This document shows positions 4,602-26,660 of a DNA stretch of 29,244 nt, in pieces (within the stretch, counting starts at the first letter, position 1; each line of letters starts with the position of its first letter). The position numbers were made by a program, and so were the translations under genes. A model generated the notes under the pieces. The model had not been told where the DNA came from. It made no database searches and saw nothing but the letters and a program-made list of their open reading frames with translations. Source of the DNA: a virus; IMG/VR virus record IMGVR_UViG_3300010151_000098, positions 1 to 29,244 of that record; one strand, written 5' to 3'.

Positions 4602-5291
4602 CTAATGTTGGGATAAGTGTACAATTTGTTGACGTTGAATAGTATGCTGACTGAAGCAACCAGCTTTGCAAGTATCGCAATGTCCTTTCAGTTTCTTATG
4701 AGTCTTGGGACATAGAAATACTTTCTTCTCAGTGGCTGGACTATGTGTCAAGGTATCATCTCCATAGAACATAATATTCCAGCCAGTATCTTCCAGCATC
4801 TTCCATTCTTCTGTAGTATTAGATGGATCAACACTGGCATTGATAGCAATGTTCTTGATAGGGAATAGAACATCTTCTATCAAAGTCTTGAGATGAGGAT
4901 CACGCCATGCTCTGGTAGGCACCCACCATGCTGTATCAGGATTATCCTCTACCATTTCCTTGACCTTGAATACATCTGCTATGTTAGCAAAGGCTTCACC
5001 TCTAGTCTTGAGACGTACTCGCTTGGTTTGCTTATGCTTACGTTTCAGAAATGGTTTGACAGAAAGAGGATCAAGGTTCTGCCAGATACTCTCTACCCTG
5101 TCATCCCTGTCATGCATCTTGGGATAGAGTTTATATAACTTATTATTGAAACAAGTATTAGAACAGAACTCTGTCTTGTGTATGCATGATCCTTGATGGT
5201 TCAAGGTATCATTGATGGGTCGATCAGTGGCGAACTGTCCTATGTCCTCACACCAACGAAATAGATCAGCAAGTTCTTTGTTCGTAGTCAT
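4602..5291 (-). CDS. Gp88-like Cys-rich phage protein
   Basis: 229 residues. Cysteine clusters sit at both ends: CIHKTEFCSNTCF near residue 36 and CPKTHKKLKGHCDTCKAGC near residue 196, with WWVPTRAWRD and IAINASVDPSNTTEEW between. This resembles the mycobacteriophage Gp88-type proteins, which carry an N-terminal CxxxC block, a T-R patch and an AS-x-D strand. That resemblance is from memory and not exact. The cysteines could bind zinc or an iron-sulfur cluster. Function unknown in all members I know. It has a plausible start at 5291 next to the upstream gene (12-nt gap). Confidence 0.6.
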   Translation of the reverse strand: MTTNKELADLFRWCEDIGQFATDRPINDTLNHQGSCIHKTEFCSNTCFNNKLYKLYPKMHDRDDRVESIWQNLDPLSVKPFLKRKHKQTKRVRLKTRGEAFANIADVFKVKEMVEDNPDTAWWVPTRAWRDPHLKTLIEDVLFPIKNIAINASVDPSNTTEEWKMLEDTGWNIMFYGDDTLTHSPATEKKVFLCPKTHKKLKGHCDTCKAGCFSQHTIQRQQIVHLSQH

Positions 5292-7618: not shown

Positions 7619-7799
7619 CTTTTTTATCCTCCACCTTGATAGGCACCCATCGCTTGGGTTGCCAATGGATAACCTTGACAGGTTTCCCATTGACTTTCTT
7701 CTCACTTGTGTGGGGTTCCCCATCATTCACAAGCTGCCATGTTACCATTGCTCCATCTACTGGGCGAATGGTCTTCTCAGTTTTTGCAAAGTAAGTCAT
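7611..7799 (-). CDS. small hypothetical protein
   Basis: 62 residues from the ATG at 7799, which shares its A with the preceding TGA (TGATG). AAAGGA is 10 nt upstream. A GTG one codon earlier is possible but less likely. Basic and Trp-containing (VIHWQPKRWVPIKV). Function unknown. Confidence 0.65.
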   Translation of the reverse strand: MTYFAKTEKTIRPVDGAMVTWQLVNDGEPHTSEKKVNGKPVKVIHWQPKRWVPIKVEDKKDG

Positions 7800-7888
7800 C
7801 ACTTATTCCTTTCTATGTGATCTATCGTTAACATTATAACAGTAACTATAATGATGTACAAGAGTATGGCGAAGAGACTCAGAGTCAT
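7799..7888 (-). CDS. 29-residue single-span membrane peptide
   Basis: Opens with ATG overlapping the preceding TGA as ATGA and closes with TGA overlapping the next ATG as TGATG. That framing at both ends, in a coupled operon, makes it a likely gene despite its length. Residues 4-22 form one hydrophobic helix (LFAILLYIIIVTVIMLT), followed by the polar tail IDHIERNK, as in small inner-membrane phage peptides. It could modify host envelope functions or lysis timing; no family recognised. A candidate promoter lies inside it (7833-7861). Confidence 0.6.
   Translation of the reverse strand: MTLSLFAILLYIIIVTVIMLTIDHIERNK
7833..7861 (-). promoter_or_regulatory. possible extended -10 promoter, leftward
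   Basis: On the minus strand TGTTATAAT (-10 at 7833-7838, extended TGn) with TTGTAC (7856-7861) 17 nt upstream. It lies inside the 29-residue peptide gene and would serve 7611-7799 and the following genes. The -35 is weak and the site is coding, so this is tentative. Confidence 0.3.
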
Positions 7889-8040
7889 GATAGCATCTCC
7901 TGCCAATATAACTGTGCCGCTATTTGTTTTTGCTCCTCATATAGTTGAGTCCATGGGCGATGGTCAAAGTAATCTCCTGTAGAGGATGTTTGATACCACT
8001 TCACAATGGCATCATCTACATCGAGTTCCAAGTCAGTCAT
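7885..8040 (-). CDS. 51-residue hypothetical protein
   Basis: Short acidic protein (MTDLELDVDDAIVKWYQTSS start), helical and rich in Trp, Tyr and Gln in the second half. It overlaps the upstream stop (ATGA) and the downstream start (ATGA). Coupling on both sides supports it. Function unknown. Confidence 0.65.
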   Translation of the reverse strand: MTDLELDVDDAIVKWYQTSSTGDYFDHRPWTQLYEEQKQIAAQLYWQEMLS

Positions 8041-8240
8041 CTATATTTCCTCCTCGCCAATTGAAAACTAGCAAAGTGTGCTGCCTCAATAATGATATCA
8101 CTATCTTCCCATTCTAACACTTTGTGCCAGAATTTAAACTTCCATGTATGCCAGTCCATGGGGCGATACTTCCATATTCTGGCATGTTCCTCGTGCTTAT
8201 CATGTAAGCGTTTACGTTCTTTAGCTTCCTGATCGGTCAT
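8037..8240 (-). CDS. small basic Trp-rich hypothetical protein
   Basis: 67 residues with an unusually aromatic, basic middle (WKYRPMDWHTWKFKFWHK) flanked by a charged helix (AKERKRLHDKHEEH). The start lies 20 nt inside the preceding gene. No family recognised; could bind nucleic acid or membranes. Confidence 0.65.
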   Translation of the reverse strand: MTDQEAKERKRLHDKHEEHARIWKYRPMDWHTWKFKFWHKVLEWEDSDIIIEAAHFASFQLARRKYR

Positions 8241-9182: not shown

Positions 9183-9291
9183 ATTCCAGGAATACATGCG
9201 ATATGATTGATAGCATGGCGAGTGCGCCTGTCCAATGTATAACCAGGCGACCAATGCGGTAATTGTTTGTTTCTGTCGTTCTATTTCTCAT
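9175..9291 (-). CDS. 38-residue single-span membrane protein
   Basis: From the ATG at 9291, with GGAG 10 nt upstream: a polar, basic N-terminus (MRNRTTETNNYRIGR) followed by one hydrophobic helix (LVIHWTGALAMLSIISHVFL). Single-span topology with a positively charged N-terminus suggests an inner-membrane peptide. It overlaps the upstream gene by 11 nt. The longer frame to 9381 is rejected because it reads through the neighbouring gene. Role unknown. Confidence 0.6.
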   Translation of the reverse strand: MRNRTTETNNYRIGRLVIHWTGALAMLSIISHVFLELV

Positions 9292-9424
9292 TGTTATCAC
9301 TCCATATCTGGAACGCATCCAGCGCATGTACATGTAGTTCGTTACCATACACATCTGTGATGGTAACTGTCTCGTCTTCATTCTCTTGGTATGTATTACC
9401 TGCCTTGTCAGTTACCTTAAACAT
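9281..9424 (-). CDS. 47-residue hypothetical protein
   Basis: Short acidic beta-rich protein (MFKVTDKAGNTYQENEDETV start) with YGNELHVHALDAFQIW. AAGGAAG lies 8 nt before the ATG, and the ATG follows directly on the previous TAA. Possibly a small Ig-like or phage regulatory domain; unassigned. Confidence 0.65.
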   Translation of the reverse strand: MFKVTDKAGNTYQENEDETVTITDVYGNELHVHALDAFQIWSDNNEK

Positions 9425-9850
9425 TTATTTCTTCCTTCTGATGTTACTCACTTGCTTGCGACAGAACCTAGCCTTCTGCTTGTCTGTCATTGTTGCCCAC
9501 TTCTCAGCGGTCATTTCTTTATCCATGACTACTCGTCTGGCGCTGCTTGCCACCTTCCTATTATAATCGACGCCTCTCGATTTGCCTGTGTTAGGGCGAG
9601 GGTTCTGCGTGTTCGCAGTACCTGCATATAGCTCGCCTATGTCATCCACGTCAGATGCGCCATTGCTCAATTTCAGGCACTTGCTTTCCATGACTGGATT
9701 GCCTGAAAGAATGGCAATTGCTTGATTCTTCTCATGTGCAAGCAACTCGCAATCCTTCACCTTGATAGGCTCACGCCATCCCTTGTCCTGCACAAGTGAC
9801 CTAGCCTTGCGGCTTAGATCATATGATACCTTCACATAATCATACTTCAT
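9425..9850 (-). CDS. hypothetical protein, basic C-terminus
   Basis: 141 residues from the ATG at 9850 (MKYDYVKV), with GGAG 6 nt upstream; an ATG at 9871 lies within the repeated element and is less likely. A central low-complexity N/T/G/R stretch (TANTQNPRPNTGKSRG) links two helical halves; the C-terminus is basic (KQKARFCRKQ...RRKK) and probably binds nucleic acid. Base composition is richer in G+C than most of the window. Preceded by a terminator and a 26-bp inverted repeat element, so a promoter must lie in 9851-9919. Function unknown. Confidence 0.65.
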   Translation of the reverse strand: MKYDYVKVSYDLSRKARSLVQDKGWREPIKVKDCELLAHEKNQAIAILSGNPVMESKCLKLSNGASDVDDIGELYAGTANTQNPRPNTGKSRGVDYNRKVASSARRVVMDKEMTAEKWATMTDKQKARFCRKQVSNIRRKK

Positions 9851-9859
9851 ATTGTCTCC

Positions 9860-9882
9860 ACTTTTTCTCATTGCGAAAAACT
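9860..9882. repeat. AGTTTTTC/GAAAAACT element, copy 4
   Basis: Plus strand ACTTTTTC, TCATTGC, GAAAAACT (one change in the left arm), followed by ATCG. It lies 10 nt before the ATG of the 141-residue gene on the minus strand. The 25 nt from TTTTTC to ATCG recur at 10601-10625 with one mismatch. Confidence 0.7.
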
Positions 9883-9886
9883 ATCG

Positions 9887-9912
9887 TGACATTGTGAATA
9901 GATGAATATCGC
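9887..9912 (+). repeat. 26-bp inverted repeat, left copy
   Basis: TGACATTGTGAATAGATG and eight further bases, found in reverse complement at 10673-10698 with a single mismatch. The pair brackets the 202-residue gene. This copy sits in the 36 nt between the gene terminator and the repeated element, where a promoter for the leftward genes is expected. Confidence 0.75.
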
Positions 9913-9918
9913 AATAGC

Positions 9919-9953
9919 AAAACCCCTAGCACGCTTTCACATGCTAGGGGTTT
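9919..9953 (-). terminator. rho-independent terminator after 202-residue gene
   Basis: Perfect 12-bp hairpin AAACCCCTAGCA / TGCTAGGGGTTT (arms 9920-9931 and 9942-9953) with a 10-nt loop. On the minus strand the second arm ends GGGGTTTT, a short U-run. It begins 4 nt after the stop of the gene 9957-10565. Its G+C-rich stem and position make a terminator likely. Confidence 0.8.
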
Positions 9954-9956
9954 GAA

Positions 9957-10565
9957 TTATGCCGCTATTTTAGTTTCCTCTTTGGTAGTTACTGAACGCT
10001 TGGCCAATGCAGCAATGGCAAGGCCTTGAGCCTTATGCGACGCCCACATGGCTTCCAAGAGCTTGTCGCTTGCGCTCTCGGTTTTGGTTATCGTCTCGCT
10101 CGTCTTATCAATTTTGACGTTCAAGGGATCACCTTTAGGCTTGGGAGCCATGACCAGTAGTTTCGTACTGGTCAATTCATGGGCGGCGAAGGCTTCCAAG
10201 ATGTTGGAAGCTGTACGCTCTTGTTTGGCGTTAGCGTCGAAATGTCCATTCATGAATGCCCAAAATTTCTTGGCCTTCATGACTGTTCGTACACGCTTCA
10301 CAGTGGAAGGGGAGACCTTGGCGGTTTCCATTGCCACTGCCTGAGCCTTCGCCACCTTGCTATTGTTTTTATAGAAGGCCTTGAAGAAATCAGCTTGTGA
10401 AGTGTTAAGCGTCTCAGCGTCTGCTAGTTCGCAGTACGTGTTACTGGCGATAAGAGCGATTGCATGAAGCGCCAAGTTTTCCTTTGCGCTTGTTGCTTTC
10501 GCTTCCATCCCACTAATGACTTCGCAAGATGCGTTAAGCGTGTAAATTTTGTTTTCGATGGTCAT
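9957..10565 (-). CDS. hypothetical protein, first leftward gene
   Basis: 202 residues from the ATG at 10565 (MTIENKIYTL); AGGAAAT is upstream. A GTG at 10610 lies in the repeated element and is rejected. It is Ala/Lys/Thr-rich and mostly helical; a segment VSPSTVKRVRTVMKAKKFW could hold a DNA-binding helix. No family recognised. As the promoter-proximal gene of the left arm, with its own terminator and bracketed by a 26-bp inverted repeat, it is a good candidate for an early regulator or host-takeover protein (inference). G+C content is high, about 60% in one sampled 60-nt line, unlike the structural arm. Confidence 0.65.
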   Translation of the reverse strand: MTIENKIYTLNASCEVISGMEAKATSAKENLALHAIALIASNTYCELADAETLNTSQADFFKAFYKNNSKVAKAQAVAMETAKVSPSTVKRVRTVMKAKKFWAFMNGHFDANAKQERTASNILEAFAAHELTSTKLLVMAPKPKGDPLNVKIDKTSETITKTESASDKLLEAMWASHKAQGLAIAALAKRSVTTKEETKIAA

Positions 10566-12967: not shown

Positions 12968-13750
12968 ATGGCAAAGAAAAAGAAAAAATTAGCACCAAGA
13001 CCAAAACCTAATCCAAGAGCTAAACCTGTTGATACCAGCATGGGGGATAATGAATTTATTGCAGATTTATTAAAATCTCCCTTCATGAAAAATAATCCTT
13101 TAGCTAAAGTAGGTTTATATGGTTTGTTACCAGAAGAGCGTACTCCTCTACCAGTTGAGGCATATGATGATCAAACAAATCGAGCAGGATTTTATGTAAC
13201 AAAATCTAGCGGTAAACCACATAAATTTAACTATGGATCAGATGTTAAGAAAAAAGGTATGGTAGCAATAAGAAGTAGAGATGGAGATATTGAATACAGA
13301 TATCCGCAAGATATAGAACGAATGCTTATAAAAGATAAAACTTATGTAAATGTAAATCCTATAACAAACAAGGCTTTTGCTAGAACATTGGATAAAATGA
13401 AAGAAGTTCCAGAAGGAACAACATCTAAACTTGACGCTCAAATAAATACTATAATACATGAATTAATGCATAGAGGATTTAAAAAAGTTTCTGCATTAAA
13501 AAATCTTAGTGCAGGACAAGAACATGCATATATAGAAGAAAAAGAAAAAGCAGCTTATTCTCCACGTTCTCAAGACAATATATTACGACAAGTATATGAA
13601 GAAGAATTAAAAAAAGACCCTAATATTTCTAAATATATTAAAACACATATGCCTGAATTATATTTTAAAAAATCTCAGGGCTATCTTGATAAAAAAGCTA
13701 CAAAACCCATATCAACTATGACAAGATTATTTAGATATTTAATGAAGTAG
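12968..13750 (+). CDS. zincin-like protein with HELMH motif
   Basis: 260 residues. An N-terminal Lys/Pro/Arg-rich tail (residues 2-19, KKKKKLAPRPKPNPRAK) precedes a probable metallopeptidase fold: TIIHELMHRGF (161-171) is an HExxH zinc-binding helix with catalytic E165 and ligands H164 and H168; H186 or E190, in QEHAYIEE, could be the third ligand. The family is unknown to me. The gene is strikingly A+T-rich (one 60-nt line sampled in it has 12 G/C) and has its own promoter. It sits between terminase and portal, where head maturation proteases and morons are found, so it may be a maturation protease or a virion-borne peptidase; neither is proven. Confidence 0.7.
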   Translation: MAKKKKKLAPRPKPNPRAKPVDTSMGDNEFIADLLKSPFMKNNPLAKVGLYGLLPEERTPLPVEAYDDQTNRAGFYVTKSSGKPHKFNYGSDVKKKGMVAIRSRDGDIEYRYPQDIERMLIKDKTYVNVNPITNKAFARTLDKMKEVPEGTTSKLDAQINTIIHELMHRGFKKVSALKNLSAGQEHAYIEEKEKAAYSPRSQDNILRQVYEEELKKDPNISKYIKTHMPELYFKKSQGYLDKKATKPISTMTRLFRYLMK

Positions 13751-16723: not shown

Positions 16724-16914
16724 TGGATTTATTTGAAACTATAGCTCAAGTATATACAGATGAAATTGAGAACCAGAAGATTAGTTTAGCTCAAGGTAAT
16801 CCTTCTGATTATCCTGCCTATAAACAAGTAGTAGGATATATAGCAGGATTAGAATGGGCTAAACAAAACTTGAGAGACATTGTACATAAACAACTTTATA
16901 TTGAAGAGGAGTAA
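16723..16914 (+). CDS. small helical hypothetical protein
   Basis: 63 residues, alpha-helical (MDLFETIAQVYTDEIENQKI start, VGYIAGLEWAKQNLRDIVHK in the middle). Starts at TAATG on the previous stop. Its pattern (D-Y-Y/W and AGLEWAK) resembles a small protein often found next to phage structural genes. Function unknown. Confidence 0.7.
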   Translation: MDLFETIAQVYTDEIENQKISLAQGNPSDYPAYKQVVGYIAGLEWAKQNLRDIVHKQLYIEEE

Positions 16915-16915
16915 A

Positions 16916-17344
16916 ATGCAACAGGCACATTTAGGTAATGCAGTAAAAAATAATCAATGGACTACTGATGAAGAAGAACAACCTGATCCAGATGTATTGC
17001 CAGTACTTCCAGGCTTTCATGTCTTGGTCAGACCTATATCTATTAAAACAAAAACCAAGGGAGGTATTATTCTACCTGATTCAACAAAGGATGATATGGC
17101 TTATCTCACCACAGTGGGGCGTGTAATTGCTCTGGGAGACATGGCATATAAAGACCAAGATAAATTTCCATCTGGTCCTTGGTGTGAAGTAGGTGATTAT
17201 ATCTGTTATGGTAAGCATATAGGTACAAAGTTATTTTATAAAAGTGTTAGGCTCATTCTTATGTTTGATGATCAAGTCATGATGAAGGTAGAAAATCCTA
17301 CATATCTTGACCCTACATTTAATTTAACTAGTTTTTCTGGATGA
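16916..17344 (+). CDS. GroES-like co-chaperonin
   Basis: 142 residues from the ATG at 16916, after GAGGAG 5 nt upstream; an in-frame ATG at 16880 is inside the preceding gene. Residues about 28-130 match the chaperonin-10 fold: VLPGFHVLVRP, KTKGGIILPDST, then VGRVIALGDMAY, PWCEVGDYICYGKHIG and a final strand. KTKTKGGIILPDST includes the mobile loop with the hydrophobic II-L triad that docks to GroEL. A phage GroES would help fold the capsid, like T4 gp31 does. Its place between portal and scaffold supports a capsid-folding role. Confidence 0.9.
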   Translation: MQQAHLGNAVKNNQWTTDEEEQPDPDVLPVLPGFHVLVRPISIKTKTKGGIILPDSTKDDMAYLTTVGRVIALGDMAYKDQDKFPSGPWCEVGDYICYGKHIGTKLFYKSVRLILMFDDQVMMKVENPTYLDPTFNLTSFSG

Positions 17345-19513: not shown

Positions 19514-20434
19514 ATGGCTATTAATCGTTCAAGTATTGCTAAAGAACTCCTTCCAGGTCTTAATGCTGTTTTCGGTATTGAGTATGGCGATGTTAATAAC
19601 GAGCATGAAGCTCTTTATGATATTGAAAACTCTGATCGAGCATTTGAGGAAGAAGTTCTATTTACTGGTTTTGGTACTGCTCCCACCAAGGGTGAGGGTG
19701 CTGCTGTAACCTATGATGACGCGCAGGAAAGTTATACTGCACGTTATACGAATGAAACTGTCGCTCTTGCCTTTGCAGTTACCGAAGAGGCTATGGAAGA
19801 CAATCTCTATGACACGTTTGCAAAGCTACGTGCCAGAGGTCTTGCCAGAGCAATGGCTAACACGAAGCAGGTCAAAGCTGCTAACCTGTTCAACAATGGT
19901 TTCTCTGATACCATTGGTGATGGTGCTGCTTTCTTCTCAGCTTCGCATCCAACCATTAGTGCAGGTTCACAGTCTAACTTGATTGCTGCCTCTGATCTTT
20001 CAGAAGCGACTCTCGAAACTGCCCTGACGAATGTTCAGAAAATTGAAGATGATCGTGGTATCCTGATTGGTGCCAGTTCAGTATCGCTTCATATCCCTGT
20101 AGATTCGTGGGCTATTGCAGATCGTGTCTTGGCAAGTCCAGGTTCGACGCAAGTTAGTGCTGCTGCTGCAAACCCAAATACGAATGCTATTAATGCAACT
20201 CGTCATATGGGTATGTTGCCTGATGGTTTCTATGTTAATCGGCGCTTTACCGATACGACTTCATGGTGGATCAAAACTGATGTTCCTAATGGATCAAAGA
20301 TGTTTGTTCGCACCCCTCTTCAAACGAAGATGGAACCTGATTTCGACACAGGTAATCTTCGCTTCAAGGCGCGTGAGCGTTATGCTTTCGGTGTCTCTGA
20401 TTGGCGTGGATGGTTCGGTTCGCAAGGATCGTAA
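19514..20434 (+). CDS. major capsid protein (Mu gpT-like)
   Basis: 306 residues, as in phage Mu gpT (305). Family marks: NAVFGIEYGDVNNEHEALYD at the N-terminus, the FTGFGTAPTKGEGAAVTYDDA segment, RYTNETVALAFAVTEEAMEDN, ARAMANTKQVKAANLFNNGFS, and the C-terminal RFKARERYAFGVSDWRGWFGSQG, all as in the HK97-fold gpT-type capsid. It needs no N-terminal protease cleavage domain. A strong GGAAGG ribosome site and a terminator behind it fit a high-yield gene. Confidence 0.92.
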   Translation: MAINRSSIAKELLPGLNAVFGIEYGDVNNEHEALYDIENSDRAFEEEVLFTGFGTAPTKGEGAAVTYDDAQESYTARYTNETVALAFAVTEEAMEDNLYDTFAKLRARGLARAMANTKQVKAANLFNNGFSDTIGDGAAFFSASHPTISAGSQSNLIAASDLSEATLETALTNVQKIEDDRGILIGASSVSLHIPVDSWAIADRVLASPGSTQVSAAAANPNTNAINATRHMGMLPDGFYVNRRFTDTTSWWIKTDVPNGSKMFVRTPLQTKMEPDFDTGNLRFKARERYAFGVSDWRGWFGSQGS

Positions 20435-20760: not shown

Positions 20761-21441
20761 ATGCCTAATTTTTCATTTTTAAAAAATGATTTAGTAAATA
20801 CAACAGAGAATGATTCCACTGAGTTTGAGAATCAAATATCTTTCTTTGTGGAAAAGACAGAGAATAGATTGACAAATGATCTAGACGATTTTGGTCTAGA
20901 TTTTTTTACGACTGTCTCTTGTTGTATTGGCAATCCTATTGTATCTCTTCCTGTTGATACAAAGATTGTTAGAAATGTAAATGTAATATCCAGTGCATCT
21001 TCAAATAGAACAAGTTTATTACAAAGAACTTATGAGTATGCCATAGACTACTGGCCTCATGCCAGTTCTTCTGTGGGTGATCCTCGTTATTACTCACGTA
21101 AAACAAATACAGCAATTTATATTGTACCTACTCCTGCATCAGCAGTTGACATAGAAGTACAATATGTTCGTAGACCACTAGGACTAGCCTCTGCCACAGG
21201 AACAAGTGTAACAACTTCTAATTACTTCAGTGAAGATTGTTATAATGCATTGTTCTATGGGTGTATGATTGAGGCTACCATGTATATGAAAAGTTGGGGT
21301 GATCTTCCAGTATGGGAAGCTCAATATCAAAACGCTATTAATCAGCTTAGAAATCAGGCTCGTCGTACCAGACAAGATGACATGGCACAAGCTGCAAGTC
21401 CTGCTGGTAGTCCTGATACTGTTATCATGGGTTCAACTTAA
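20761..21441 (+). CDS. head-tail adaptor protein
   Basis: 226 residues. A pattern of helix, beta domain and helix: ENQISFFVEKTENRLTNDLD, then VSLPVDTKIVRNV and IYIVPTPASAVDIEVQYVRRP, then FSEDCYNALFYGCMIEATMYMKSW and a helical tail. It fits the phage connector adaptor class that joins the portal to the tail (the ordering D-x-P and V-E-Y-x-RRP is typical). Its ATG is 4 nt after the previous stop. Confidence 0.7.
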   Translation: MPNFSFLKNDLVNTTENDSTEFENQISFFVEKTENRLTNDLDDFGLDFFTTVSCCIGNPIVSLPVDTKIVRNVNVISSASSNRTSLLQRTYEYAIDYWPHASSSVGDPRYYSRKTNTAIYIVPTPASAVDIEVQYVRRPLGLASATGTSVTTSNYFSEDCYNALFYGCMIEATMYMKSWGDLPVWEAQYQNAINQLRNQARRTRQDDMAQAASPAGSPDTVIMGST

Positions 21442-21641
21442 TGACTATCAGTAGAGGTAAGATTTCTAAACAGTTAAAACCTAAACTAGGCACAGGCAAG
21501 AGATTTAAAAACTTAACCAAAAAACTAAAAAAGAAGGGTGCTAAAGACCCCAAAGCTCTTGCAGCTTATATAGGTAGAAAAAAATATGGAAAGAAAAAAT
21601 TTCAAAAGTTATCATCTAAAGGAAGAAGGAGAGTATCATGA
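21441..21641 (+). CDS. small basic protein
   Basis: 66 residues, about 40% Lys/Arg. Contains the recurring phage pattern DPKALAAYIGRKKYGKKKFQ. Starts on the previous stop as TAATG and ends in ATGA with the next gene. It may be an internal DNA-binding virion protein. Confidence 0.7.
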   Translation: MTISRGKISKQLKPKLGTGKRFKNLTKKLKKKGAKDPKALAAYIGRKKYGKKKFQKLSSKGRRRVS

Positions 21642-21802
21642 AAGACTTTGTATCAGGGGCAGCAGCACGTAAGCTCCCTAATCTTGATCCAGATTTGAAC
21701 GAGATCGTAGGGCGTCCCACAGGACAGGGTTTTGGTGCAGCAAGAAAAGGACCAAGTGTAGTTGCCTCTTCTGACAAAGACCTCATGAAAGAGGAGGACT
21801 AG
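21638..21802 (+). CDS. small hypothetical protein
   Basis: 54 residues (MKDFVSGAAARKLPNLDPDL start), with GRPTGQGFGAARKGP in the middle. Translationally coupled to the preceding gene (ATGA) and behind an AAGGAGAG site. No assignment. Confidence 0.65.
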   Translation: MKDFVSGAAARKLPNLDPDLNEIVGRPTGQGFGAARKGPSVVASSDKDLMKEED

Positions 21803-21804
21803 TC

Positions 21805-22941
21805 ATGGCAACAACTAGAAAAAGACCATCAACAATAGCTCAAGCTAAAAAAGCCAAAAGTAAATTTTTTTATGGCAAAGGCAATAAAAAACTTGCTGCT
21901 GTGACTAAAGAAGATATGGAAAAAGCAGGATTTAAAAGTTTTGGCAGACAGTCTTTAAGAAAATATTTAGAGCAACAAAAAAACAAACCAAAACAAACTG
22001 CTGCAAAAGTTGCGCCTAGACCTAGACCTAGACCTGCACCTAAAGCTAGAGTACCTGCACCTGTTCTTAAAGCTAAAGAATCTGCACCTGCTCCTAAAAC
22101 TAAACCAGTAGGGAGAAAAACTACAGATGCTGGTACTTCAGATTGGCTCAAGAAAAAAGATCAGGAAATAGTGGGTCCAGCAGCTAAGACTCCTAAACCT
22201 AAACCTACTTCTAAACGTAAAACACCTACAGGTGCTGATCTTAATGCGCCTCAAATTCCTAAATCTAAATCTAAATCTAGACCTAGAAGAGGATCATCTG
22301 CTCCACTCTCCATGAGATCAGAAGGTGATAAGGGTTTTGAATCCTCATCACCATTTAAAAAATACGCTGATCCTTATAAGGATGTAGGTAGAGGTAAAAG
22401 AGGACAAAAAGGACAAGCTCCTGTTCCAACAACTGAAGAAAAAGTAGCAATGGCTGGACTTGCTCTTTCAGCTTTAGGAGGTCCAGGTACAATAGCTGGA
22501 AAAGCTGCTATTAAAGGAGCTACAAAATTTGGAAAACCTTTTATAACTAACTTGATAAAAAAAATAAAAGATTTAGCGCCAAAGCAACAAAAAGAAGTTT
22601 TAAAAGCAGTTAATAAAGGTAAAACTAAAACAGAAGCTGCAAAATTAGGACAGGATTCCATGAGAGTATTTACAGGTAGACAACCTTTAGCAAAAGATCG
22701 CGTTGAACCTTATATTACAAAAGTAAGTAAACCCTTGACTAAAGGAGAAAGCGAAGCTTCTCGTACAATGGACGCAGCTAGACAAACTCAACGTACAGAA
22801 ATTGATCCTGGTTATACAGGAGGAGCTTTAAAACGAGGTGGTCAAATTAAAAAATATAATAAAGGTGGTAAAGTTATAAAACGTAAAGAAGGTGGACAGG
22901 TTATGTCAGGTTCTGATCTTGTTTCATCTTTGTATGATTAA
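21805..22941 (+). CDS. Lys/Pro-rich protein with C-terminal GGQV tag
   Basis: 378 residues, about a third low complexity: a Lys/Ala/Pro-rich stretch (RPRPRPAPKARVPAPVLKAK and more, about 70-170), then a short Gly/Ala helix with a small hydrophobic core (AMAGLALSALGGPGTIAGKAA, about 214-235), then basic sequence. It ends GGQVMSGSDLVSSLYD, identical to the next gene product's end. The helix could cross a membrane, so it may act in DNA ejection (speculative). GAGGAGG site upstream. The last 66 bp are almost identical in the next gene. Confidence 0.7.
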   Translation: MATTRKRPSTIAQAKKAKSKFFYGKGNKKLAAVTKEDMEKAGFKSFGRQSLRKYLEQQKNKPKQTAAKVAPRPRPRPAPKARVPAPVLKAKESAPAPKTKPVGRKTTDAGTSDWLKKKDQEIVGPAAKTPKPKPTSKRKTPTGADLNAPQIPKSKSKSRPRRGSSAPLSMRSEGDKGFESSSPFKKYADPYKDVGRGKRGQKGQAPVPTTEEKVAMAGLALSALGGPGTIAGKAAIKGATKFGKPFITNLIKKIKDLAPKQQKEVLKAVNKGKTKTEAAKLGQDSMRVFTGRQPLAKDRVEPYITKVSKPLTKGESEASRTMDAARQTQRTEIDPGYTGGALKRGGQIKKYNKGGKVIKRKEGGQVMSGSDLVSSLYD

Positions 22942-22952
22942 GGATTTTAATT

Positions 22953-23495
22953 ATGGCTAATTCAAAAGATGATGAAGAATTTAATAAAATGATGTCACGA
23001 ATTATGGGACAACCTTGGCCTCCTTCTTCTAAAAAATCAAAGTCAAATGGATTAGGAATAACTCCTGGCTATTCACAAGAACAGGTTAATAAAATAATAC
23101 GTTCTCCTTCTAGTTCTAGAAATAGACCTAGTTCTAGAACTAGACGCATAAAAAAAGAACCCACTGTTGAACGTACTGTAGAAAATTATGGTCTTCCTAG
23201 AAAAGAACCTTTGATAAAAAAAGGACATGTTCGAGAAGAACCTACAGCTATGAAAAAAAGAATAAATAGAGATTTACGAGGTTTACCTAATAAAGAATTA
23301 AATAAGTTAATAAAAGATCATGAAACCAAGAAGTTTCGTTGGAGAGGTTATGATCCTTATTTAGATTTACCTTATACAGAACGAAAAATGAGAAAAGGAG
23401 CTACTGATTATAAAAAAGGTGGACAAATATCTAAACGTAAAAAAGGTGGACAGGTCATGTCAGGTTCTGATCTTGTTTCATCTTTGTACGATTAA
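22953..23495 (+). CDS. basic protein with the same C-terminal tag
   Basis: 180 residues, basic, mostly disordered in its first 90 residues (SSSRNRPSSRTRRIKKEP), with a helical part RDLRGLPNKELNKLIKDHE. Ends KRKKGGQVMSGSDLVSSLYD. The gene is notably A+T-rich. Its ATG is 11 nt after the previous stop. Function unknown; the tag is discussed in findings. Confidence 0.65.
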   Translation: MANSKDDEEFNKMMSRIMGQPWPPSSKKSKSNGLGITPGYSQEQVNKIIRSPSSSRNRPSSRTRRIKKEPTVERTVENYGLPRKEPLIKKGHVREEPTAMKKRINRDLRGLPNKELNKLIKDHETKKFRWRGYDPYLDLPYTERKMRKGATDYKKGGQISKRKKGGQVMSGSDLVSSLYD

Positions 23496-23506
23496 GGAGA
23501 AGTTAT

Positions 23507-23734
23507 ATGGCTAATGATAAATCTTTCAGTGATTTTTTTAGACAAACTGTAAATAAAAAACGTAAAATAAAAAATAAAAGGGATAACGCTAAAGAAAATG
23601 AATATGGTCCTGGTAATCAATTACCTAAGAAAAAACGTGCTGGTGGTGGAGACTTTAATATTGAAATGAAGATTCCTAAAGACATGGTTAATCAAGGTGT
23701 AATGTATGGTTACAAAAAAGGTGGTCAAGTTTAA
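23507..23734 (+). CDS. small basic protein ending KKGGQV
   Basis: 75 residues (MANDKSFSDFFRQTVNKKRK start), very basic, A+T-rich. Ends YKKGGQV, i.e. it stops where the tags of its two neighbours continue with MSGSDLV. It could be a shortened version of the same tag. GGAG before the ATG. Confidence 0.65.
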   Translation: MANDKSFSDFFRQTVNKKRKIKNKRDNAKENEYGPGNQLPKKKRAGGGDFNIEMKIPKDMVNQGVMYGYKKGGQV

Positions 23735-23758: not shown

Positions 23759-24433
23759 ATGGCAACCAGTGGTACATTTAATTTTAACCTTGATATAGAT
23801 GAGGTTATACAAGAGGCAACAGAAATGATTGGGGGAGAAAATACCCTTGGTCATGAACCTGCCTCTGCTCGTCGTTCTATTAATCTGATGCTGACTGATT
23901 GGCAGAACAGAGGTGTTCTTCTATGGTCTACTGAAGTAACAGCAGTTACAGTAGCTGCCAGCGTTACTTCATATGCTTTAAGTAATTCTACTATTGATGC
24001 TCTGGAAGTAGTTGTCAATAGAGATGATACTGATATTCAATTAACAAGAATTTCTTTTGAAGAATATCTATTAATACCTAATAAAAAACAAACAGGCAGA
24101 GCCACTCAATATACTGTTAAAAGAGATAGAGATAATCCAACATTAAGCATCTGGCCTTTACCTGATAACAGTACAGATATATTAAAGATAGAACGTATAA
24201 GTGAATTAGAAGATGTTAATAAGTCAGCAGGACAAAATGCTGACATGCCTAAAAGATTCTTGCCTTGTCTTACATGTGGTCTAGCTTATTATATGTCAAT
24301 GAAAAGACCTAACATTGATCCAGCAAAAATTGCAATGCTTAAAGGAAACTATGAAGAACTATTGCTTAGAGCAATGGAAGAAGATAAAGAACGTGCAAGT
24401 ATTTTCTTTAGACCAAAAATCAGGACAGTCTGA
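23759..24433 (+). CDS. P22 gp4-like head-completion protein
   Basis: 224 residues. The N-terminal DEVIQEATEMIGG, a RSINLMLTDWQNRGVLLW helix, a beta domain (TSYALSNSTIDALEVVV) and GRATQYTVKRDRDNPTLSIWPLP are features of the P22 gp4 family that closes the portal after packaging. Starts after TAGGAAA; overlaps the next gene by 1 nt (TGATG). Confidence 0.75.
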   Translation: MATSGTFNFNLDIDEVIQEATEMIGGENTLGHEPASARRSINLMLTDWQNRGVLLWSTEVTAVTVAASVTSYALSNSTIDALEVVVNRDDTDIQLTRISFEEYLLIPNKKQTGRATQYTVKRDRDNPTLSIWPLPDNSTDILKIERISELEDVNKSAGQNADMPKRFLPCLTCGLAYYMSMKRPNIDPAKIAMLKGNYEELLLRAMEEDKERASIFFRPKIRTV

Positions 24434-24735
24434 TGGCAACAGATAGTAAAGCATTAGCTATATGTGATACTTGTGGTTTTAGATATCCTCATAGGGTAAT
24501 GAAACTAAATAGTTTTGGTTTATTAGTTTGTCCAGAAGATTATGAAGGTGCTTTCGATTTAAAGAATCATCCCCAAAATAAAATTCCTGATGTAAGGGAT
24601 GATGTTAAAATAAAAAATCCTAGACCTGATTCAGGAGGTCGTAACCTAGTGTGGAATACAGCTAACTTACTTTGGGATGGTACTCCTAATAATATGAGTG
24701 ATCAAGTAGTTTCACCAGTATGGAATAGCGCATGA
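24433..24735 (+). CDS. zinc-ribbon virion-region protein
   Basis: 100 residues. CDTCGFRYPHRVMKLNSFGLLVC is a CxxC plus single-Cys metal site (the fourth ligand may be the His or Asp nearby). C-terminus WNTANLLWDGTPNN resembles short phage proteins next to tail genes. Function unknown. TGATG start on the previous stop. Confidence 0.7.
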   Translation: MATDSKALAICDTCGFRYPHRVMKLNSFGLLVCPEDYEGAFDLKNHPQNKIPDVRDDVKIKNPRPDSGGRNLVWNTANLLWDGTPNNMSDQVVSPVWNSA

Positions 24736-26660
24736 GTGATTTTGATTTAACAGGTAAAAGAATAGCTGATACTTATAAAGGTCTGCTTAAACTTGCTGTA
24801 AGTGGTAATGGTGCTGTATCTTCTTCTCTTACACAAGTTGAGGGAGGAGATGGTACTAACACTGCTTTACTTGTAGCTACTGATTCTATTAGAATAGGAG
24901 GTGCTTTTGCAGTATCTTCTAATGCTTCTGTAGGAGGCTCTTTAAAAGTTAATGGAGATGTATGTGCAAGTTCTTACTTTGGAAGTGGTAGACATCTTAC
25001 CAGTATTGTAGCATCAGGAGATACTTCTGTAAGTTCTCTTATAGTTGCAAACACTGCTACAATTGGAGGAACTCTTTCTGTAGGTGGTGCAGTTAATCTT
25101 TTAAGTACTGCCACTGTCAGTGGAGCAGCAGGATTTCTTGGTACAGTCAGAGTAAGTGGTAATACTACACTGGGAGGTACTCTTGATATTGCAGGTAATA
25201 CCTCTGTAGGAGGAACTCTTATAACAACTGGAGCAGCTACGTTTGATGATGACGTATCTGTAAGCGGTAATGTAAATATAGGAGGTACAGCAACTGTTGC
25301 AGGAGCAGCTTCAATAGGAGGGGCTGTATCTATTGGAGGTGCAGTTAATCTTTTAAGTACTGCAACTGTTTCAGGTGCAGCAGGATTCTTAGGGTCTGTT
25401 AGAGTTAGTGGTGCTACCTCGCTTGAAGGGGCTACAGTCTTAGGATCAACTGTTACTGTAGCAGGAGCAGGACATTTTAAAGATGATGTATCTGTAAGTG
25501 GTAATGTTAATATTGGAGGTACAGTTACAATAGCAGGTGGTAATCTTCAAGCCACTAATGCTAAAGTTTGTGCAAGTGCTTTCTTTGGAGATGGCTCTAA
25601 CTTAACAGGAATTACAGCTTCAGTTGAAGGAAATGTTTCAGTTACTAATCTTCTTGTAGGAGGTACAGCCACAGTATCAGGTGATGCTACATTTAAAACT
25701 AATGTATCTGTAAGTGGTAATTTAGTAGTAGGAGGTACTACAACAATAGTAGGTGCAGCATCTATAGGAGGTGCAGTATCAATTGGTGGTGCAGTTAATC
25801 TTCTCAGTACAGCCACAGTATCAGGTGCAGCAGGATTCTTAGGAACTGTGCGAGTCAGTGGTAACACAACAGTTGGTGGTACGCTAGATGTTGCAGGTAA
25901 CACTTCAGTTGGTGGTACGTTTATGTCTACAGGTGCTGCTACCTTTGATGACGATGTATCTGTATCAGGTAATATTGTTATTGGTGGAACAGCAACAGTA
26001 GTTGGTGCAGCTTCAATAGGAGGTGCAGTATCTATAGGAGGTGCTGTAAATCTTTTAAGCACTGCTACAGTTAGTGGTGCAGCAGGATTCTTGGGAACAG
26101 TACGTGTAAGTGGTAATACAACTGTTGGAGGCACGTTAGATGTAGCTGGTAATACTTCGATAGGAGGTACATTTTTAGCTACAGGTGCTGCAACATTTGA
26201 TGATGATGCTTCAGTATCAGGTAATTTACATGTGGGAGGTACAGCCACGATTGGTGGGGCAGCACAGATTACAGGTAATGTAAGTCTGGGTGGTCAATTG
26301 TTCTTGGCTAAGTCAGGAGCAGCAGCTATATCAGCAACAGCTATTAATGGTATAACTTCTGTATCCTTAAACTTCTCTAATGCTCAAAACTTTCTTACCA
26401 CAGTTACAGCAGCACATACCCTGGCTAGACCTACTAATGCTACCAAAGGACAAACAGGAAGTATTTTCTTAGTTCAGTCAGGAGGTAGTGGTACATTGGC
26501 TTATAACACTTGTTGGAAATTTATAGGAGCAAGCGTACCAACTCTGGATGTAAGTAATGGTGCAGTGGGAAGACTAGATTATATTGTAGTATCTATCTCT
26601 AGTGATAGCACTGGAGAAAACATTCATGCAATTTTAACCAACGCATATGGAAATAGTTAG
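24732..26660 (+). CDS. repetitive tail fibre protein
   Basis: 642 residues. Four repeat units start at residues 118, 202, 352 and 436; the regular unit is 84 residues with the core GGAVNLLSTATVSGAAGFLG, then beta-rich Gly/Thr/Val runs of a left-handed-helix or beta-prism kind. The second unit carries an extra 66 residues including VCASAFFGDGSNLTGI, a motif also seen near residue 80 as VCASSYFGSGRHLTSI and common in phage fibre shafts. The last 110 residues are not repeated and may form the tip. It probably forms a trimeric side-fibre shaft. The ATG overlaps the previous stop. Confidence 0.85.
   Translation: MSDFDLTGKRIADTYKGLLKLAVSGNGAVSSSLTQVEGGDGTNTALLVATDSIRIGGAFAVSSNASVGGSLKVNGDVCASSYFGSGRHLTSIVASGDTSVSSLIVANTATIGGTLSVGGAVNLLSTATVSGAAGFLGTVRVSGNTTLGGTLDIAGNTSVGGTLITTGAATFDDDVSVSGNVNIGGTATVAGAASIGGAVSIGGAVNLLSTATVSGAAGFLGSVRVSGATSLEGATVLGSTVTVAGAGHFKDDVSVSGNVNIGGTVTIAGGNLQATNAKVCASAFFGDGSNLTGITASVEGNVSVTNLLVGGTATVSGDATFKTNVSVSGNLVVGGTTTIVGAASIGGAVSIGGAVNLLSTATVSGAAGFLGTVRVSGNTTVGGTLDVAGNTSVGGTFMSTGAATFDDDVSVSGNIVIGGTATVVGAASIGGAVSIGGAVNLLSTATVSGAAGFLGTVRVSGNTTVGGTLDVAGNTSIGGTFLATGAATFDDDASVSGNLHVGGTATIGGAAQITGNVSLGGQLFLAKSGAAAISATAINGITSVSLNFSNAQNFLTTVTAAHTLARPTNATKGQTGSIFLVQSGGSGTLAYNTCWKFIGASVPTLDVSNGAVGRLDYIVVSISSDSTGENIHAILTNAYGNS
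25083..26288 (+). repeat. tail fibre 84-codon repeats
   Basis: Repeat starts at nt 25083, 25335, 25785 and 26037: spacing 252, 450, 252. Protein sequence is conserved with many synonymous changes between units, so the repeats are old and kept by selection on protein. Confidence 0.85.

Follow-up and report, generated by a model that had tools for sequence, protein, structure and literature searches.

Two adjoining late genes of a marine podovirus-like phage encode basic proteins with unrelated bodies and an identical C-terminal peptide, and the reading that we favor, at a probability of roughly one half, is that this common end serves as a modular cargo or docking signal by which swappable virion proteins would be loaded into, or onto, the particle. 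The tag is anchored at the C-terminus of unrelated bodies, the tagged genes cluster in the morphogenesis module, the bodies are swapped between phages with the tag kept, and the tag DNAs are alike within a genome. The putative virion location of the tagged proteins is read from the position of their genes.

The tagged genes lie within a morphogenesis module

The 29-kb virus record (IMG/VR record IMGVR_UViG_3300010151_000098), analyzed over its whole stretch of 29,244 nucleotides and referred to here as the window, is a fragment of a marine podovirus-like phage. It encodes large terminase, portal, GroES-like, scaffold-like and capsid proteins and an SU10-type adaptor, the names terminase, portal, GroES and scaffold being based on sequence reading and on synteny with annotated relatives. 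Downstream of the adaptor gene are two small genes, followed by three basic proteins of small to medium size (pI 10.0-10.5, about 24% K+R) and then by a conserved structural gene at 23759 (Table 1). Protein 1 is composed of an N-terminal folded domain, a low-complexity middle, a hydrophobic or helical region at approximately residues 210-290, and a KGG-repeat tail that ends in the tag.

Table 1. Positions in the window of the tagged genes, their terminal motifs and the conserved genes around them.
Feature	Position	Strand	Remarks
Major capsid protein	19514..20434	+	Pfam Phage_capsid_4, E = 1.8e-13
Adaptor	20761..21441	+	Pfam SU10_adaptor, E = 7e-17; PHROG 2941, head and packaging; bounds the swap region on the left and is conserved
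Tagged protein 1	21805..22941	+	378 aa, pI 10.5, 23.5% K+R
Basic KGGxV/I repeat linker of protein 1 (KRGGQIKKYNKGGKVIKRKE)	22831..22890	+	Conserved in relatives
DNA direct repeat, copy 1	22879..22944	+	3 mismatches in 66 against copy 2; spans the stop codon and a Shine-Dalgarno-like AAGGA
Tag copy 1, class A (GGQVMSGSDLVSSLYD)	22891..22938	+	
Tagged protein 2	22953..23495	+	180 aa, pI 10.3
Basic KGG repeat linker of protein 2 (KKGGQISKRKK)	23412..23444	+	
DNA direct repeat, copy 2	23433..23498	+	With copy 1 delimits a 554-bp insertion/deletion unit that contains gene 22953-23495
Tag copy 2, class A (GGQVMSGSDLVSSLYD)	23445..23492	+	
Small basic protein 3, with class-C tag	23507..23734	+	75 aa, pI 10.0
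Class-C tag (GVMYGYKKGGQV)	23696..23731	+	
PHROG 12985 protein	23759..24433	+	Adaptor/tail-like by synteny; bounds the swap region on the right and is conserved

The GroES-like co-chaperonin of the morphogenesis module (16880-17344) is likewise annotated in HTVC027P, HTVC023P, 023Pt_psg01 and CRP-902. Between the large terminase and portal genes, positions 12968-13750 encode a 260-aa basic protein that matches no Pfam family; its HELMH motif (NTIIHELMHRGFKK) is zincin-like, and it is a candidate morphogenesis protease. A fibre-like protein consisting of many near-identical repeats (ATVSGAAGFLGTVRVSGNTTLGGTLDVAGNTSVGGT) is encoded at 24732-26660; the antisense 233-aa open frame inside its gene (25547-26248) probably reflects composition. 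The minus strand encodes a 229-aa protein containing cysteines at 4602-5291.

Two unrelated proteins end in the same peptide

An initial annotation, made from the sequence, had proposed that neighboring proteins of the virion region share a 16-residue C-terminus on unrelated bodies, and that the DNA of these ends is itself repeated. Open reading frames 21805-22941 and 22953-23495 do both end in the same 16 residues, and the bodies are indeed unrelated: unmasked BLASTP gives E = 2e-13 over the last 46 residues and a best E of 0.46 when the last 40 are left out. The 66-bp DNA repeat is present as described, its three differences being one nonsynonymous (E/K) and two synonymous (Val and Tyr) changes, and weaker similarity reaches to 22855-22961 and 23409-23515 (84% over 109 columns, measured against L008, a near-identical copy of the window). 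The AAGGA common to the two copies overlaps the stop codon and looks like the Shine-Dalgarno sequence of the next gene. The third gene had been described as carrying the same tag one step short; it does end KKGGQV, but this end belongs to a separate recurrent C-terminal motif, MYGYKKGGQV.

Proteins 1 and 2 have no whole-protein homologues in 50,697 phage records and no significant PHROG or Pfam match, and the tagged proteins gave no PHROG or Pfam match to the P22/T7-type ejection protein families. An ORF-level BLAST match between the 378-aa body and a LysM body (E = 9e-5, filter off) was judged to be a composition effect. The AlphaFold model of protein 1 is confident only in an N-terminal domain of about 60 residues and a helical stretch; the tail (residues 330-378) has a pLDDT below 50, and the tag is drawn, at low confidence, as a short helix. 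Foldseek found no significant match to this model in the PDB or among viral models, the viral model of note being A0A8E5BES3 (probability 0.89, E = 0.69, not significant), which at 231 aa has the length of Roseobacter phage CRP-9 gp65. The capsid model, built with 29 relatives, reached a pLDDT of 36, and a search of solved structures with the capsid and portal produced no match. No relative was detected among the genome contigs searched for a hint of the host.

The tag is constrained and recurs in marine viral contigs

The tag is not confined to this phage, so that the first condition set for refuting the initial suggestion, its absence from every other phage, does not hold. Degenerate-pattern scans of 2.9 million viral contigs recovered it from more than 20 other marine viral contigs, the close form being SG[SN]DLV[SA]S[LIM]Y[DN] and that of more distant relatives (L/F/Y)-(V/I)-(A/S)-S-(L/I/M)-Y-(D/E)-stop, with ends that include SGSKFVASLYE, GGTFFVASLYD, GGTLLVASCYD and SGNDIIKMIYD. 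The loose class-A pattern was matched by 55 distinct C-termini among 5,458, where shuffling of the last 20 residues leads to an expectation of 0.05, and chance is thereby excluded. When 1,829 distinct ORFs (333,086 residues) were scanned, the core motif was found at the exact C-terminus in 51, no more than six residues from the end in nine, and internally in one, so that 60 of 61 occurrences lie at or close to the C-terminus. The 33 distinct tag DNAs differ in their codons and have a pooled pN/pS of 0.55, with the tyrosine invariant and valine or isoleucine retained in 33/33. Because the patterns were written after the sequences had been seen and the contigs are related rather than independent, these statistics indicate constraint and not the number of independent origins.

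In eight contigs of 28-60 kb, 24 of the 517 predicted genes match a tag class, and all of them are located within about 5.5 kb downstream of the capsid gene. At least two genes of one tag class are present in 35 of 44 contigs, as counted with loose patterns in a redundant set. The class-A tag was not found in the regions read of the cultured relatives HTVC027P, 023Pt_psg01 and CRP-902, and consequently it is not essential to the capsid lineage. A search of the literature with the letters of the tag brought up nothing of relevance.

Bodies are swapped while the tag is kept

Gene neighborhoods were compared in about 60 loci, found through relatives of the adaptor gene. Four contigs (L003, L015, L032 and L033) encode an adaptor at least 99% identical to that of the window, and their alignment to the window holds up to the start codon of gene 21805, is replaced there by a different body, and resumes at the tag. 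The substitute, with the same flanks and the same tag, is a LysM domain protein (Pfam E = 1.8e-15); class-A-tagged LysM bodies are also encoded by L021, L064 and L069. A homologue of gene 22953-23495 that is 75% identical is found in L010/L018, and the gene is missing from L015, L020, L032 and L033. The one tag of L020 aligns to both copies in the window, as would be expected for insertion or deletion between direct repeats. The same kind of body can occur with or without the tag: a DUF5872-like body, MAKLCxKGKAAAKRKF...KPTxVKTF, has no tag in the cultured pelagiphages HTVC027P and HTVC106P, among others (there divided between two genes), but ends GGxxLVASxYD in relatives of the window, and DESIAMRIKKKR bodies are without the tag in HTVC027P and with it in relatives.

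The tags of the window are alike at 35/36 nucleotides (last 11 codons plus stop) and those of L018 at 36/36, but between the window and L018 the match is 30-31/36, including the pair on orthologous second bodies. Greater likeness within a genome than across orthologous bodies points to gene conversion or cassette exchange, and it is likely that one or the other has occurred recently, in keeping with the recent copying first suspected from the near-identity of synonymous sites. L003 is a counter-example: its two tags differ at 4/36, and the second is identical to the first tag of the window over the same stretch.

In L064, the class-A-tagged genes 7681-8133 and 9228-10043 also have a common N-terminus, MSAK[RG]KGTKKGVSAFID, and the ends may have been duplicated at both sides of these proteins.

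Further tag classes

Nearly all close relatives retain the class-C end of gene 23507-23734, VMYGYKKGGQV, and in contig G005 two genes carry a variant of it. Contigs G003 and G005 each have two copies of a third class, GVGAALRGYGKGYK. The ends of the tag classes are mostly preceded by basic KGGx[VI]-type repeats. The class-B regular expression also picked up GAARKG at a non-terminal site of the 54-aa gene that is the equivalent of 21638-21802; these matches are not tags, and they do not affect the count of contigs with a repeated class, there being one per contig and no other class-B gene in those contigs.

The cultured phages L106-L108, L130 and L134 encode KGG-repeat tails or short basic ends with other terminal motifs (GVGAAIRGHKFIGVK, RDGCAKRGRTKGRFI, KGGMVDMRTTGLFR and STGKLNTGIKGCE), which may represent further tag classes. 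In the cultured phage HTVC023P, gp32, gp51 and gp53 contain class-B-like motifs, GAA(I/V)RG or GFGAAR, close to the C-terminus. CRP-9 gp65 resembles the N-terminal domain of protein 1 in sequence, yet it ends KGGMVDMRTTGLFR. In Roseobacter phage CRP-902 (L109, 5098-10349), four proteins encoded between portal and GroES begin MANPVKDLFSTLG, MANPIKGALGEIG, MANPVKGAISQLG or MANPVKGAIGQLG, and this N-terminal motif on otherwise different proteins is possibly a counterpart of the tag at the other end of the chain.

Discussion

A sorting signal for the virion gene cluster, as initially suggested, is consistent with the genomic evidence: the tag lies at the C-terminus, is conserved as protein sequence, is found on bodies without relationship and more than once in a genome, and is confined to genes of the morphogenesis module. 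Of the interpretation offered at that time, recent copying also stands, and the third gene as a truncated copy is the part that has to be abandoned. We propose a model in which a flexible, strongly basic linker of KGGxV repeats would present the short terminal motif [LFY]-[VI]-[AS]-S-[LIM]-Y-[DE]-COOH, possibly as a short amphipathic helix, to a constant component of the assembling virion, which would recognize the motif and load whatever body is attached. The partner would most plausibly be the prohead shell, on its inside, or else the scaffold or portal core of the prohead. As late-gene cargo, the bodies, of which some have a hydrophobic segment or a LysM domain that binds peptidoglycan, would exit together with the genome or act on the envelope during entry. 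Phages would exchange them as cassettes, by recombination within the conserved tag and the 5' flank. Against this docking model, three coexisting tag classes are not explained by a single shell-docking site, and for none of the tagged bodies is an enzymatic or anti-defence function proven.

One of the closest functional parallels is probably the capsid-targeting sequence (CTS) of phage T4. The internal proteins of T4 have only a capsid-targeting sequence in common (PMC3012670), and the CTS of IPI-III and Alt is reported to direct proteins to the core of the prohead and to serve as a carrier for foreign proteins (PMC3012670, PMC9391042, PMC5694885). Like the tag, it is short and constant, and the late proteins that bear it are otherwise highly diverse and change fast; unlike the tag, it is N-terminal, and its sequence is unrelated. 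The T4 signal is removed by the gp21 prohead protease; in the window no gene was identified as one. An N-terminal peptide of 30 residues from P1 DarB is sufficient to bring a reporter into the capsid (PMC9024508), and the tag, as a putative packaging peptide, would differ from it in being C-terminal. The tagged genes also resemble those of the P22 gp7/16/20, T7 gp14-16 and SU10 ejection proteins, which are mosaic, diverge fast, lie near connector genes and have membrane-active or wall-acting domains. Mosaicism of internal virion proteins has been noted (PMC10386132), and a shared terminal tag is not described for podovirus ejection proteins in the literature covered.

Family 1 encapsulins load unrelated cargos through short C-terminal targeting peptides (PMC7925596), which, like the tag, are placed behind a flexible linker. 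The Myxococcus xanthus peptide PLTVGSLRRGG, with its core V-G-S-L, resembles V-[AS]-S-L of the tag (PMC7925596). The resemblance to the known peptides, with their GSL / LGI core, is statistically weak (random-peptide P = 0.016 for M. xanthus and 0.57 for T. maritima), and the analogy is therefore only a lead. The terminal Tyr-Asp is absent from the encapsulin peptides compared, and the tagged genes, instead of accompanying a stand-alone encapsulin shell gene, lie in a module for phage morphogenesis that includes large terminase, portal-type and adaptor genes. The best reading at present appears to be that the tag works like a capsid-targeting sequence while being homologous neither to the T4 CTS nor to the encapsulin peptides. 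A bolder version, which we consider quite doubtful, has the class-A tag dock, as a cargo-loading peptide of the phage, into the major capsid protein at its inner face. The tag would then be mechanistically, perhaps even ancestrally, equivalent to the encapsulin peptides, and marine phages would use a small C-terminal tag code (LVASLYD, GAALRGYGKG and GYKxGGxV) for sorting swappable cargo to different sites in one virion.

Other explanations place the tagged proteins elsewhere. The tag could dock them to the tail or connector (adaptor, portal or nozzle) or to the outside of the virion, the LysM bodies being tail-associated wall-binding factors. The tagged genes directly adjoin the SU10-type adaptor gene, and LysM domains often occur in endolysins and tail hubs, as in the baseplate hub and endolysin families of PHROG; however, strongly basic, low-complexity and highly variable bodies are more like internal or ejected proteins, and many tagged bodies have no LysM domain, so that we hold attachment to the tail to be unlikely. 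An address within the host cell, through membrane or periplasm targeting, a degron, or binding of a host or phage enzyme, would make the tagged genes late accessory or lysis genes that are merely sited in a virion operon. LysM domains and hydrophobic segments do suggest action at the envelope, and the putative place of these proteins in the virion is read from gene position, but among the 517 predicted genes no tagged gene lies outside the capsid-proximal cluster, and the small basic DUF5872-type bodies do not look envelope-directed. We regard such an address as unlikely.

Two further explanations concern the origin of the repeated end. That the repeat is a recombination joint or hitchhiking DNA, whose stop codon and Shine-Dalgarno segment aid cassette insertion while the peptide has little function, seems improbable to us: divergent contigs encode the motif with differing codons yet keep it in frame and at the C-terminus throughout, its Tyr and V/I invariant, and the same position is taken by several unrelated terminal motifs. 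These features outweigh, in our judgment, the inclusion of the stop and AAGGA in the DNA repeat, the presence or absence of gene 22953-23495 between the repeats in near-identical phages, and the likeness of tag copies within genomes. Simple tandem paralogy of proteins 1 and 2 is rejected because the bodies have no similarity. A version in which the bodies of ordinary tandem paralogues diverged beyond recognition, with only the ends conserved, would suit adjacent genes of similar composition that both start MA and have basic tails in common. It is nevertheless very improbable, since no similarity remains outside the tail, among the tagged bodies are LysM and DUF5872 proteins that have independent relatives, and the tag DNA (35/36) is too alike for an ancient duplication without body identity, unless it was homogenized later.

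In the literature covered, loading of arbitrary proteins into phage heads by a short terminal peptide is described for T4 and P1, and in both the peptide is N-terminal. If the docking model is correct, a C-terminal, swappable tag system in a group of marine podoviruses would give a function to a class of orphan late genes and would show how phages exchange ejected proteins as cassettes. It would also offer a signal of natural origin with which proteins could be loaded into phage capsids, and a phage counterpart of encapsulin cargo loading would become testable.
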